DNA of 64,000 bases from Ctena decussata (taxonomy: Eukaryota; Mollusca; Bivalvia; Lucinida; Lucinidae). The DNA is taken from NCBI GenBank assembly GCA_963989385.1, contig OZ022506.1, positions 8,640,841 to 8,704,840 on the forward strand. Reading direction: 5' to 3'. Position 1 is the stretch's first letter, and each line of letters opens with the position of its first letter. Position numbers and translations under genes: made by a program. Below, piece by piece: positions 29,009 to 64,000 of this stretch. A model generated the notes under the pieces. It was not told where the DNA came from, searched no databases, and saw only the letters and a list, made by a program, of their open reading frames with translations.

Positions 29009-29185
29009 ATGACTTCAAAGAAATACGACTACACCGTTGTCCCACCAACTGAAGAGTATAGTCCAGCCGGTGCTACAGAAATTGTATTGGCAGTTACAGT
29101 TGCAGTTTCTCTGTTCAGTTGTGTTTGTTGTGTGCTATACTGTAAAGGCTTTTTCAAACGGAAAACAAGAACTAATCAGCGACCG
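29009..29185 (+). CDS. PY-adaptor gene A, exon 1 (membrane exon)
   Basis: Encodes residues 1-59 of a predicted 204-residue protein. There is a ~22-residue polar N-terminus, one hydrophobic helix (about 23-45, with a CVCC cluster suited to palmitoylation), and a basic stop-transfer segment (FFKRKTR). No cleavable signal peptide is apparent, so a type III topology (short outside, long inside) is inferred. The exon ends ...CGACCG|GTAAGC at 29185, a strong donor on a codon boundary (phase 0). Genes B and C have the same exon plan and phase. The intron is 29186-30768. Confidence 0.75.
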
Positions 29186-29245
29186 GTAAGCTATCTATTA
29201 TTATTAACAATTTTACGTTTGGAAAGATAGAATGAAAGAGATGAC

Positions 29246-29483
29246 TGAGCTGCGACACGAGAAAACCAACAATGTGGTTGTGCGCCCAGCGTAGATTCAG
29301 ATCAGCCTGGGCATCCGCCCAGTCTGATCAGAGTCTTCGTTGTCCGCATGGAGGTAGCTTAGACCCGTAGCTACCATTTAAGCCTTTAGTGAAGAGTCTG
29401 ATTACACTGGGCGGATGCCTAGGCTGATCTGAGTCTGCCCTGGGCGCACAACCACATTGTTGGTTTTCTCGTGTCGCGGCTCA
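29246..29483. repeat. W1 hairpin MITE, copy 2 (intron of gene A)
   Basis: Full-length palindromic copy starting TGAGCTGCGACACGA and ending TCGTGTCGCGGCTCA, 60 bp after the gene A donor. Confidence 0.85.
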
Positions 29484-29585
29484 TGTATGTTTTTTGTCAC
29501 ATCCTGGAAACTGCTTTAGTCTGATCGGGGCGCATGCATATCTTTGAAGATTTGTTTCCAGAAAATTCTTGTTATCCCCGCAAAT

Positions 29586-29648
29586 AGTAGTAGTAGTAGT
29601 AGTTATAATGATAGTGATAATAAATAAATAAATAAATAAATAAATAAA
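29586..29648. repeat. (TAG)n / (AAAT)n microsatellites
   Basis: About five TAG units followed, after a short spacer, by about six AAAT units. Confidence 0.8.
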
Positions 29649-30247
29649 AGGATTCCGGAATTTACTTCTCTTGTAACAGTTTTTTTTTAATAACTAGTTT
29701 ACATTATAACACTAGTGTACTTTAATCAAATACACAGTTCCGAGAATAGCCGCTAAGCTCCGCCTGCTTAGTTACTGTTACTACGTCTTACAAGCTTACA
29801 AAAAATGGCGGAAAAACAAATGACAAAGGCAAGTGTCTGCTAAATCTTGGCGATCTATGGCGAAGAATCAGCCTTCTCATGAGCTACACATAGCAGTTGG
29901 CGCATCATGCATTTCCGATACGTTCTGTTCTTGCAAAGCAGGGAAAGTTTATTAAAAGTGGCGTTCGTTTGTTTTCTTTAAACAGGTATACATCCCTCCA
30001 GTAGCTGTGAGGTAAAATCACGGAGTTATGTTGGATATTGGCCACGTGCGCTTTGTTTGTGAGACTATGTCACGTGCTAAGTTGCCGTTGCATTGGTCAG
30101 GTATACGCTATCAGGTGATTTTAAGTGACATTCTGGGTGTGGCTCGGAACCGTGTATTGTTTATAAACTATACAAGAACTGTATTTACCTCCTCCAAAGT
30201 TTTAACTTAAAGTGTGTTAGTCCTTCTCTGCCTTCTGTACCACAAAA

Positions 30248-30325
30248 GGTTCAGGAAACAGTGCAGACCCAGATCAGATGCCACATAATGTGGCGTCTGA
30301 TCTGGGTATACAATGTTTGCATATA
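30248..30325. repeat. Short hairpin, W3-like core
   Basis: CCCAGATCAGATGCCACAT is followed directly by its complement, framed by AACAGTGCAGA and ACAATGTTTGC. It resembles the central hairpin of the piggyBac-type MITE at 34100-34320. Confidence 0.6.
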
Positions 30326-30380
30326 GAACGTTATTGGTCCTTATAGATAAAAATAATAAAATAATAATCAAACTAAACTA

Positions 30381-61132: not shown

Positions 61133-61196
61133 TAAGCGGCTGTCACCGAGCAGTCTCATACAGAGGTACCAGCATTACTATACGTATTATATTTAC

Positions 61197-61237
61197 AGAG
61201 AGAGAGAGAGAGAGAGAGAGAGAGAGAGAGAGAGAGA
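61197..61237. repeat. (GA)n microsatellite 3' of gene C
   Basis: About 20 GA units, 65 bp after the gene C stop, probably in its 3' UTR. Confidence 0.9.
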
Positions 61238-61239
61238 TG

Positions 61240-63203
61240 GTCTATTCAGCAATCTGGAAGATGCAGAATTAGTCCATAGATATAGACTCAATCAGGATTT
61301 TGTTTGTTTTGCAACTTTTTCAAGGTAAAATCCAATACCCACCCCCTTCACCCGTGGGAGTTATAGATTTGCAGCCACATTGAGAATAAATGAAGAATCC
61401 TATGTTATCAGGGCGTCAGTATACAGCTTGTTTTTGATGCGACTGATAAAATTACTGATGTACATGTATTCGTAAGCTGTCCTGCAATCACTCACGAATC
61501 AAGAATCTTGAGAGAATGTATTTCAAAAATTTTTCCGGTAATATCTGTGTGCCTGAAACAAATAAGCAATAAAATACATTTGCTAGGGGATAGCGGCTCT
61601 CCCTGTAAGCGTTGGCTCCTTAAGCCTTCCCACACCACCACTGTTCATTTAAAGTAATTGCTCTTGGTCTACAATTATAGATTAGATGTTAGCTTTAAAT
61701 TAAACATCAGCGTAGGTTCAATTCTCCCTGAGTAGGCAGAACCAGAAACGAGCATGAATGTATTCTTGAAGAGTTACAATGAACGTCTTTCAAAGAAATG
61801 ATGTTTTTTTCTAAGAGTCTAAAATGAAAGGCTGCTATATCTACAAATGATCTCATTTCACCTTGCAAGAAAGCAGAACTTATCATTCTTTAGCATTCAA
61901 CTTTCAAGTCCAGCTTCAACTCCGGCATGTCAACTGACCAGCATTCATATCAACTGGAAATCAGTTCAGGAAGCGAAAAATAATACATCGAGATTTTGCC
62001 ATGAAAATTTAATTAAAACCAAATATCCGCTTTCTCAAGCTCTCATTTGTATTCCCCGATCAGAATCTTCAGCCAGTGAATTCGATCATTTCTTCTCTGT
62101 CTGTTCACTGGACAGGTTGGCCCCAAACTGAGCCGACAACGATTCTGCGATTTAGTTTTTCCTTTTTTCATTTTGGCAGTAATGAAGGGCCGAATTTTCC
62201 TTTTCAGAAGCTGAAAGTTGTCCTTCACTTCTGCTACGAAAATAAACATTTATCCATTGACATACAACTTGCTGATTTTGTCTTCCATGTTTGTTGTTGA
62301 AAAGTCTAAATATAGCTCGGAATTCCAAGAAAAAATGCGGAATTCCAAAACAAAAGTCATCGGCACGTGCACTCTGAGATGTTGAAGCATTGAAAGAGAA
62401 CTTAGACTTGCGAAATTCTTAGCTAAGAATTTTCTTTAGTTCGTTTGAATAATAGACTAAGTTTTTTTCTTAGCTAAAATGAAAATTTTAAGATAAGATG
62501 AAAACTTGAAACAAATCTAAGATGCTTTATAAATGGTCCCATGCTAGAATACTGTAACCATTAAAGAAATATGAAAGAGCTAAGTGGTTGTGTTTCTCTT
62601 TGAAATACTGACGTCCGCGACCATTCGTCGTGACAGGAAAGGCTTTATTTTTGTCATTTCTCCTCCACGCAGGCATATAACGCTGAATCAACATTGAATC
62701 AACACTGAAACAATGTCGATTCAACGTCAAGAACTCATTGATGATTTTGGTGTGCAAGATTCAGCAGGGCCACATTTGAGCTGGGAGCCTATTCACACCA
62801 GCAATTATCCACTAATGTTCACTCATTTCAGTATAGATGCAGCTAGTATTCCAACTTATTAAGGATAATATATTCTTATTGCCAATCCTTTCGATAAAAT
62901 TCAACAAGTTTTCACGGTTAGGCGAAATGTTTATTCCGCGAAAAAGAGAATCTACCAGTTGTGCATTTGACCATTTGTCACAGTAAGCTACATGCCAAAC
63001 AACTTCCTTTCACAAGCTTATTAAGCTTTCATGATAAAAACTGGATATGTTCGCAATGCCTGGTGCCTGGCAGGTATCGAACTAGGGACCTTTTCATCAT
63101 GAGTCAGGCGGTCTATGCGGCACTGCGATCCGCAATTTTCGGATCAGCAAAGTTCTACGGCAAAATACCATTCGGTGATATGTCATGGGTCCACACATTT
63201 TAC
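61240..63203. other. Region between convergent genes C and D
   Basis: Contains a GTTGATTCAA palindromic cluster (about 62685-62755) and A-rich sequence, with candidate AATAAA signals near 61570. Near 63040-63110, GTGCCTGGCAGGTATCGAAC and GGGACCTTTTCATCATGAG resemble a decayed tRNA-like SINE head on the minus strand. No supported exon. Confidence 0.4.
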
Positions 63204-63596
63204 TCATATACTAGCATACCGATATTTCTCTGGACTCTTGATCACTTCATCATAAGAGGGAGGAGACAATGAATCCTCATGTAAATGTTCAGGGTTTTCA
63301 ATCATTTCTAGGTCATCATACATTGGTGGTGGCGCAGAGGGCTCCGCCCGAAGTTCTGGTCTCACTGCCTTTTCATCACCAAAATATATTGGTTGCCAGG
63401 CGCGTACTCGTATCATCGCGCTTACACGGGCGTCTTCCTGAGTAGTTCTGTTTGTTGCTCTGTTAGTAATTTCTGGTGAGCTTCTTGGACAGTGGACATG
63501 CCGGTCTGTCACCCGGGTAGCAACAGTTTCAGTTTGTGAGTCCGGTACAATAATAGGTGGTGCAGGTTCCATTAGTGGGGCATTTTGGGCTCTTGT
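63204..63596 (-). CDS. PY-adaptor gene D, distal tail exon (D2)
   Basis: 130 residues on the minus strand. The acceptor reads CCGTGTCCTCTTTCAG, so the exon begins at 63596 (ACAAGAGCC, phase 0 as in A-C). It encodes a disordered tail with PPMYDDL and PPSYDEV, 22 residues between the tyrosines, and a final Tyr ten residues after the last PY tyrosine (PEKY). It is clearly homologous to the exon at 63642-64000 (shared PDSQT/S, NRATNRT, EDARVSA, SAPPPMYDDLEM). Only 45 bp separate its acceptor from the stop of that exon, so it has no membrane exon of its own between them. Either it is an alternative last exon of the same gene or a leftover of a tandem duplication. The open frame and intact acceptor favour use. 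Confidence 0.7.
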   Translation of the reverse strand, partial: TRAQNAPLMEPAPPIIVPDSQTETVATRVTDRHVHCPRSSPEITNRATNRTTQEDARVSAMIRVRAWQPIYFGDEKAVRPELRAEPSAPPPMYDDLEMIENPEHLHEDSLSPPSYDEVIKSPEKYRYASI

Positions 63597-63641
63597 CTGA
63601 AAGAGGACACGGAAAATATGTCCTGGGTCCACATATTTTAC
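63597..63641 (-). other. 45-bp spacer between tail exons D1 and D2
   Basis: Contains the 3' flank shared by both copies, then a pyrimidine-rich stretch and the D2 acceptor. Too short for a poly(A) site plus promoter plus membrane exon. Confidence 0.65.
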
Positions 63642-64000
63642 TCATGCACTGGCATATTTCTCTGGACTCTTGATCACGTCATCATAAGAGGGGGGAGACA
63701 ATGATTCCTCGGGTACATGCTCTGGATTTTCAGGCATTTCTAGGTCATCATACATCGGTGGTGGCGCAGAGGGTTCCACCCGAACCGTTGGTCGTATTGC
63801 CCTTTCACCATTAAAATATGCCGGTTGCCTGGCGAGTGCACGTATCACCGCGCTTACACGGGCGTCTTCATCAGCAGTTCTGTTTGTCGCTCTATTAGTA
63901 TTTTCTGGTGACCTTCTTGGACTCTGGGCATGCCGGTCTGTCATCCGGGTAGTAACAGTATCAGATTGTGAGTCCGGTACAACAACAGGTGGTGCAGGCT
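63642..64000 (-). CDS. PY-adaptor gene D, proximal tail exon (D1), partial
   Basis: Minus strand, continues past the right edge of the window; its acceptor and membrane exon are not seen. The in-window frame is open upstream of the ATG at 63944 (PAPPVVVPDSQSDTVTTR before it), so the ATG is internal. Tail with PPMYDDL and PPSYDDV and a final PEKY at the conserved spacing, stop TGA at 63642-63644. Similarity to D2 extends a little past the stop (GAGTAAAATATGTGGACCCA in both 3' flanks), showing that the duplicated unit included some 3' sequence. Confidence 0.72.
   Translation of the reverse strand, partial: PAPPVVVPDSQSDTVTTRMTDRHAQSPRRSPENTNRATNRTADEDARVSAVIRALARQPAYFNGERAIRPTVRVEPSAPPPMYDDLEMPENPEHVPEESLSPPSYDDVIKSPEKYASA

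Follow-up and report, generated by a model that had tools for sequence, protein, structure and literature searches.

What holds together a group of short genes whose products share a membrane helix, two proline-tyrosine (PY) boxes and little other sequence, and what could these products do? The question is raised by a stretch of 64,000 nt from the bivalve Ctena decussata (assembly GCA_963989385.1, contig OZ022506.1, positions 8,640,841 to 8,704,840 of the forward strand), referred to below as the window, with positions counted from its first letter. A first-pass annotation, made from the sequence alone, had listed four such loci (A, B, C and D); all four tails are present, but the count is five, as a tandem tail, E (63998-63642), had been overlooked. 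Our analysis has shown that A, B, C and D/E are most likely genuine genes that are spliced and evolve fast; their products would be small membrane proteins that cross the membrane once, with a short N-terminus and a long tail that is for the most part disordered.

Paired PY boxes in five tail exons

The tail exon of each locus encodes two boxes of the form (L/P)PxYxx followed by a hydrophobic residue. In gene A (plus strand) these are PPLYHGL (31087-31107) and PPSYDDF (31147-31167), corresponding to PPLYHEL and PPSYNDF in P0003, one of the homologous proteins described below. In gene B (plus strand), box 1, PPSYESL (49791-49811), has the same letters in the homologues P0004 and P0006, and box 2, PPEYGTV (49962-49982), is PPEYSTV in both. 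In gene C (plus strand), box 1, LPTYDEI (61001-61021), is unchanged in the homologues P0001 and P0002, and box 2, PPSYEEV (61055-61075), is PPSYEDV in P0001 and PPSYEEV in P0002. On the minus strand, tail D carries PPMYDDL (63329-63309) and PPSYDEV (63263-63243), and tail E carries PPMYDDL (63761-63741) and PPSYDDV (63695-63675). Thus the pairing reported in the first-pass annotation is real, but since the first box of C is LPxY, the pairs are strictly L/PPxY ones. The two boxes lie 57 residues apart in B, compared with 18-22 residues in the other four tails.

All ten boxes have a hydrophobic residue at position Y+3, so that each can also be read as a YxxPhi signal (Phi, hydrophobic residue). 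Moreover, in 5/5 tails there is a Tyr exactly 10 residues past the PY tyrosine of box 2 (31186-31188 in A, 50001-50003 in B, 61094-61096 in C, 63224-63222 in D, 63656-63654 in E); the sole other L/PPxY match with Tyr at +10 in the six frames of the window lies in a microsatellite at 56536.

The frequency of the motifs in the six frames of the window was compared with that in 200 dinucleotide-preserving shuffles, with motifs within 60 residues of each other counted as pairs. Plain PPxY occurs 10 times (shuffle mean 5.61, maximum 12), and being below the shuffle maximum, this bare count is not exceptional. The extended form PPxYxx[LIVMF] is found nine times, always inside the five tail exons (shuffle mean 1.48, maximum 5), and forms four pairs, whereas the 200 shuffles gave no pair at all. 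If L is allowed in the first position, there are 17 matches, 10 in the tails and seven elsewhere (shuffle mean 6.0, maximum 12), and five pairs (shuffle mean 0.01, maximum 1). A tblastn comparison of A-E with the window yielded no further member, the best match outside the five loci having E 0.57 among the matches listed.

Selective conservation of the boxes

Comparison with homologues shows that the boxes are retained better than the remaining parts of the tails. In the pooled count, for which each of A, B, C and D was set against a single homologue, 141 of 158 residues in box regions are identical (89%), vs 259 of 404 (64%) in other tail parts (Fisher p 5e-10). The region limits were drawn by hand; the anchors, the residues after box 2 in C and D (5/8 and 1/3 identical, respectively), P0002, P0006, P0007 and E were left out of the pool, and the "other" part of B consists of the 43 residues between the boxes, its homologue spanning only the last 83 residues. 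Taken gene by gene, the box excess has p 0.0002 in A, 0.0005 in C, 0.0008 in B and 0.05 in D. The second homologues P0002, P0006 and P0007 follow the same trend, with 39/39, 34/40 and 34/39 identical residues in the boxes and 113/161, 23/43 and 51/86 in other parts. The L/PPxY core together with the hydrophobic Y+3 is retained by the homologues in 8/8 boxes (A-D, two each). The membrane anchors are also well conserved, with 79% identity in A (41/52) and 92% in C (37/40).

A similar contrast is observed between the tandem tails D and E. In the box part, the proportion of nonsynonymous differences (pN) is 0.096 and that of synonymous differences (pS) is 0.323, while in the rest of the exon they are 0.179 and 0.114 (p 0.025 for the contrast of nonsynonymous to synonymous changes between the two parts, the counts being small and rounded). 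Over the entire exon the nonsynonymous (dN) and synonymous (dS) rates are about equal, dN 0.163 and dS 0.209 by NG86, 0.181 and 0.164 by YN00. The fast evolution claimed in the first-pass annotation is supported both by the identity counts and by this D-E contrast, and so the docking module is held while the rest of the tail drifts or is pushed.

Gene structure and predicted topology

Genes A, B and C, all on the plus strand, have two coding exons each. The coding parts are 29009-29185 and 30769-31206 in A (204 residues), 47239-47367 and 49542-50021 in B (202 residues), and 59093-59230 and 60470-61132 in C (266 residues). The first coding exons of 177, 129 and 138 nt, respectively, place the intron in phase 0 in all three genes, and the introns (1,583 nt in A and 1,239 nt in C) have a GT donor and an AG acceptor. 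In A, the exon with the ATG at 29009 spans 28926-29185, with a possible acceptor AG at 28924-28925 and the donor CCG|GTAAGC after 29185; it encodes 24 residues, one helix and a basic, Cys-rich juxtamembrane stretch. In B, the exon with the ATG at 47239 spans 47213-47367 (possible acceptor AG 47211-47212, phase-0 donor) and encodes eight residues, the helix and CMWCHSRKKR. In C, the exon with the ATG at 59093 spans 58982-59230 (possible acceptor AG 58980-58981, phase-0 donor) and encodes nine residues, the helix and CWCCIRKRKK. The tail exons, each ending with the stop codon, are 30769-31206, 49542-50021 and 60470-61132. The exon positions, the phase-0 intron, the single helix and the Cys/basic juxtamembrane stretch given for A, B and C in the first-pass annotation were all found in the sequence as described.

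In each of these genes there is an in-frame stop 5' of the ATG and 3' of the possible AG acceptor, which fits a 5' leader intron and speaks against a hidden upstream ectodomain. Each protein has one hydrophobic segment, with 19-residue Kyte-Doolittle maxima of 2.77 (A), 3.16 (B) and 3.34 (C), and the stretch of Cys and basic residues lies on its C-terminal side. By the positive-inside rule, applied here without a trained predictor, this suggests an N-out/C-in topology, and the juxtamembrane cysteines may be palmitoylated. In the AlphaFold2 model of P0001, built from a two-row alignment, the helix at residues 3-35 is the most confident part (mean predicted local distance difference test score of the model 55), and the tail is mostly of low confidence with a few short helices, one of which (226-238) lies over the end of box 1.

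Tail exon D (63204-63596, minus strand) has the phase-0 acceptor TTTCAG|ACA and the stop codon at its end. Tail E (63642-64000, minus strand), cut by the end of the window, is a tandem copy of D, 432 bp away and 73% identical to it over 118 residues; only 45 nt separate the stop codon of E from exon D. Tandem Repeats Finder reported no arrays in 62900-64000, though D and E are clear copies at the protein level. The adjoining tails could possibly serve as alternative last exons. Their membrane exon is outside the window, the helix being seen for A, B and C.

Homologues and splice support

Database searches identified seven homologous proteins, P0001-P0007. P0003 is 70% identical to A over its full length, and P0001 is 74% identical to C over its full length; each spans the exon junction and opens at the same start as the corresponding window gene. 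P0002 matches the tail of C only (72% over 80%), P0004 and P0006 match the last 83 residues of B (70% and 69%), and P0005 and P0007 are homologues of D and E. P0007 contains the reading on the acceptor side of D (...FQ|T), but its frame continues beyond the point where D and E stop.

The contigs of P0003 (1,124 nt) and P0001 (1,004 nt) are shorter than the introns of A and C, and since these proteins also read unbroken over the junctions, they are most likely mRNA-derived. This indirectly supports the A and C splices, through the sequence of a relative rather than RNA of the source species, with an intronless copy as the alternative explanation. The first-pass annotation had made its gene models depend on transcripts over the three predicted junctions; for A and C the homologues thus speak for such transcripts, while B has no homologue of this kind. 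P0002, P0004 and P0006, all on long contigs, begin within the tail exon, as would be expected for genomic gene calls with a preceding intron. For P0002 (a C homologue) and P0006 (a B homologue) the longest contig listed has the same length, 209,523 nt, which hints at linkage of C and B in a relative.

The last database search was queried with an alignment of B and D, all 219 columns of which were kept in a local test, compared with 123 of 221 columns for an alignment of B, D and E. The latter and an alignment of A-E were made but not used in that search, and no whole-family profile was among the queries.

The Pfam scan covered A, B, C, D, P0001, P0003, P0005, P0006, P0007, the first exon of B, the tail of B and the first exon of C (tail E, P0002 and P0004 were left out), and none of these twelve queries gave a match at the curated cut-off. 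The two best matches were TMEM51 for B and DUF6479 for C (E 0.002, under the curated cut-off). TMEM51 (PF15345, cut-off 25.5 bits) was considered as a candidate family, with 18.4 bits (E 0.0019) for B and 15.0 bits (E 0.022) for C, and was dropped, as the match is absent for the first exon of B alone, the tail of B alone, P0001 and P0006 (tail only); a search of open-licence PMC texts found nothing on TMEM51 with PPxY. A search of PDB sequences with C only gave no matches up to E 10.

Relations among the five loci

To what extent the loci form one family was assessed by comparing hand-cut twin-box parts with 2,000 shuffles, and repeating the comparison with the four-residue cores masked. With unmasked cores, C-D and A-D score above all 2,000 shuffles, and A-C is beaten or equalled by three; with the cores masked, C-D still exceeds all 2,000. 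The box 1 region of B resembles those of C and D (two and one of the 2,000 shuffles, respectively, reach the score), and that of A less (40). Moreover, the membrane exon of B is 38% identical over 34 residues to P0001, the homologue of C (pairwise E 1.4e-4).

The near absence of similarity outside the motifs, reported in the first-pass annotation, therefore holds in general but not for D-E, nor for the weak C-D resemblance and the weak match between the membrane exon of B and P0001. Its proposal of a single family fares unevenly under masking: C and D share more than the cores and A-D is borderline, but A-C does not stand out, and B is weakly tied to the rest. The gene plan, intron phase, motif layout and position all favour a shared origin through duplication; sequence similarity, taken by itself, shows such an origin for D-E and, less strongly, for C-D.

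Proposed function and alternative explanations

We favour, with some confidence, the reading in which these proteins are single-pass adaptors whose twin extended PY boxes would recruit a NEDD4-family HECT ubiquitin ligase at the membrane, in the manner of insect Commissureless (Comm), TMEPAI and PRRG proteins. In ENaC, the WW domains of Nedd4 recognise an extended PY motif, PPxYxxL (PMC2582799). According to PMC12101832, removal of the PY motifs from Comm abolishes the rise in Robo1 ubiquitination and leaves less Nedd4 in the complex. TMEPAI has two PY motifs to which Nedd4 binds and which mediate its mono-ubiquitination, and a mutant unable to bind Nedd4 moves from lysosomes to the plasma membrane, as described in PMC5316989. 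Recruitment of the NEDD4 family at membranes is proposed because of the extended PY form and the Comm and TMEPAI precedents, and NEDD4/endocytic recruitment can be soundly inferred from the motifs. The role in vesicle release that the first-pass annotation also suggested is more speculative.

In the proposed mechanism, the paired (L/P)PxYxx-hydrophobic boxes would engage two WW domains within a single HECT ubiquitin ligase of the NEDD4 family, which would be held or activated at the membrane by the adaptor. The adaptor and a partner bound by its helix or variable tail would then be ubiquitinated and sorted to endosomes and lysosomes, the choice of cargo being made by the variable tail or the helix. 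For the A-E proteins we infer the topology, the WW binding, the ligase and the cargo.

Several observations weigh against the adaptor reading. Only seven homologues were found, none of them covers the junction of gene B, and no result supports the membrane exon of D/E. Compared with its homologue alone, D has a marginal box excess (p 0.05). With the cores masked, the A-D score is borderline, being reached by 55 of 2000 shuffles, and A-C behaves like the shuffles (1117 of 2000). The box 2 region of B, despite the Tyr at +10, scores no better against A, C and D than 139, 802 and 326 of 2000 shuffles, respectively. PPxY is also bound by WW proteins that are not ligases. Finally, the part played by Nedd4 is contested in the case of Comm itself: PMC5578492 refers to earlier work in which the control of Robo at the midline did not require Nedd4 binding.

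Among the other explanations, the boxes could be sorting signals of the proteins themselves (YxxPhi for AP-2, PPxY for self-ubiquitination); the products would then be short-lived, with the real work being done by the helix or variable tail and no other cargo involved. The YxxPhi reading does fit 10/10 boxes, and the variable tail makes up the bulk of each protein, but Pro at Y-2 and L or P at Y-3 are kept in 8/8 boxes although a YxxPhi signal needs neither, and the 18-22-residue spacing would suit tandem WW domains, which makes this explanation unlikely. Docking of non-ligase WW proteins of the YAP/Yorkie, WWOX or Kibra type, with the A-E proteins acting as membrane tethers in Hippo-type signalling, is less plausible still. 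PPxY alone does not fix the partner. Tandem PPxY motifs would suit tandem WW domains here as well, for example those of YAP2 with LATS1 (PMC5814282). The hydrophobic Y+3 in 10/10 boxes, however, fits the extended PY form of Nedd4/ENaC.

We consider it quite improbable that the genes are divergent members of the STMC6 group (Shisa, WBP1, VOPP1, CYYR1) that have lost the extracellular Cys domain; WBP1 and VOPP1 are here taken by us to belong to this group. The overall layout, a single helix with a PY tail, is common to both, and there are weak WBP-1 matches below the threshold of 28.1 bits for C (14.9 bits, E 0.043) and P0001 (12.8 bits, E 0.2). Against this, only 8-24 residues precede the helix, in-frame stops lie upstream, P0001 and P0003 have the same start, no Pfam cut-off was reached, and no Shisa or CYYR1 match appeared among the scanned proteins. 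A viral or mobile-element origin, with captured membrane proteins carrying boxes similar to late domains, seems hardly credible. Small PPxY membrane proteins are in the style of viruses, and the window also contains a copia-like element; but the genes have introns, and in scans of IMG/VR viral contigs, which reach close relatives only, there were 2 pattern matches for C, 13 for P0003 and 2 for D, none of them confirmed as a relative.

The adaptor reading can be extended, though we regard the extension as doubtful, to a lineage-specific, tandemly growing family of ligase adaptors, in which the anchor and the twin WW-docking boxes would be under purifying selection, the middle of the tail would change at or above the neutral rate, and new tails would arise by duplication of the tail exon next to the existing one, as with E and D, which are separated by 45 nt. 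The variable middle would then possibly be the part that picks the target, and splicing could join a single membrane exon to alternative tails.

Which receptors are degraded is decided by small PY-motif membrane adaptors, whose rapid change can hide them from homology searches. The present cluster was detected by motif pairing and gene plan and then backed by homologues, a route that can lead to such adaptors in other animals. A, C and D/E form a natural comparison set for the question of whether the twin box alone suffices for function.

Other features of the window

The copia-like element, of the Ty1/copia type, occupies 14957-24084. It contains an open reading frame (ORF) of 1366 residues (17726-21826, plus strand) with an RVT_2 match (E 8.5e-16) and an integrase-core match under the cut-off (27.8 of 32.6 bits), and it has direct repeats at 15103-15402/23785-24084 (98%) and 14957-15108/22799-22950 (97%). 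Another ORF, 7413-8255, has a likely coiled coil and a weak B-box match scoring 20.8 bits, under the cut-off of 27 bits; its frame resumes at 8256-9299 past a single in-frame stop, and the whole looks TRIM-like.

Repeated units in the region 41781-47062 give two ORFs in three copies each, of which one lies on the minus strand and two lie on the plus strand; the plus-strand copies are 1,674 and 1,867 nt apart. The microsatellite-like region 55786-56802 has three overlapping frames of 310-338 residues of the LSIYLSIY type. A dispersed repeat is seen at about 29260-29480, 50080-50290 and 58800-58910, with phrases like gcgcccagcgaagact and cagcctgggcatccgcccagtctgatcag occurring several times, partly as inverted pairs. 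Finally, at about 30385-30460 there is a stretch resembling a transfer RNA, gtagtggataacactccagactaccaatccaggggtcgcaggttcgatcc, by its look perhaps the head of a short interspersed nuclear element; for this stretch, neither ARAGORN nor Rfam at the gathering score gave any match.

Comparison with known families

Among the papers listed in searches of open-licence PMC texts, none describes a molluscan family of this type; a mussel expression atlas mentions Shisa proteins over-represented in gills (PMC5549309), which are not of the A-E type. Still, short one-helix PY-motif membrane proteins are a kind already known, and a likeness among them, covering Comm, yeast Rcr1/2, PRRG, CYYR and Shisa, has been drawn in PMC5578492.

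The tails of ENaC share the PPxYxxL form bound by Nedd4 WW domains (PMC2582799), but belong to ion-channel subunits, an unrelated kind of gene. The Shisa-like STMC6 group (Shisa, CYYR1) is described as comprising short single-pass proteins, CYYR1 having three PPxY motifs and a membrane segment that contains Cys; the Cys-rich N-terminal domain of this group is absent here, with 24 (A), 8 (B) and 9 (C) Cys-free residues before the helix. PRRG/TMG proteins, in the published description, are short membrane proteins in which LPxY precedes PPxY, as it does in gene C, but there is no room for their extracellular Gla domain in A, B and C, and no Gla match appeared in the Pfam scan.

TMEPAI (PMEPA1) is a type Ib protein whose helix lies close to the N-terminus; it has two PPxY motifs, which bind Nedd4 and direct it to lysosomes (PMC5316989). 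The TMEPAI/LDLRAD4 plan, a single membrane pass near the N-terminus combined with two PPxY motifs, is found in A and B, while C has LPxY and PPxY; the likeness is one of description, and no Pfam family reached the cut-off for the window proteins scanned. TMEPAI and LDLRAD4 also carry a Smad-interaction motif.

Comm, compared here by its published description only, is a short single-pass protein without a signal sequence, with two cytoplasmic PY motifs (PPCY and LPSY) and little conserved beyond them; according to the same description, no homologue has been found outside insects (PMC5578492). The order of motifs differs, being LPxY then PPxY in gene C and PPCY then LPSY in Comm, and so does position Y+3, which is hydrophobic in the window proteins, while in LPSYDEAL of Comm Y+3 is Ala and Y+4 is Leu. 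The extended Comm motif GLPSYDEAL does not occur, the nearest being SLPTYDEIEN in C, with PPxY in the other boxes. Nevertheless, LPTYDEI of C recalls LPSYDEAL, and the combination of a single helix with paired PY motifs in the tail, present in A, B and C, is that of Comm, a substrate adapter for Nedd4 on Robo1 (PMC12101832).

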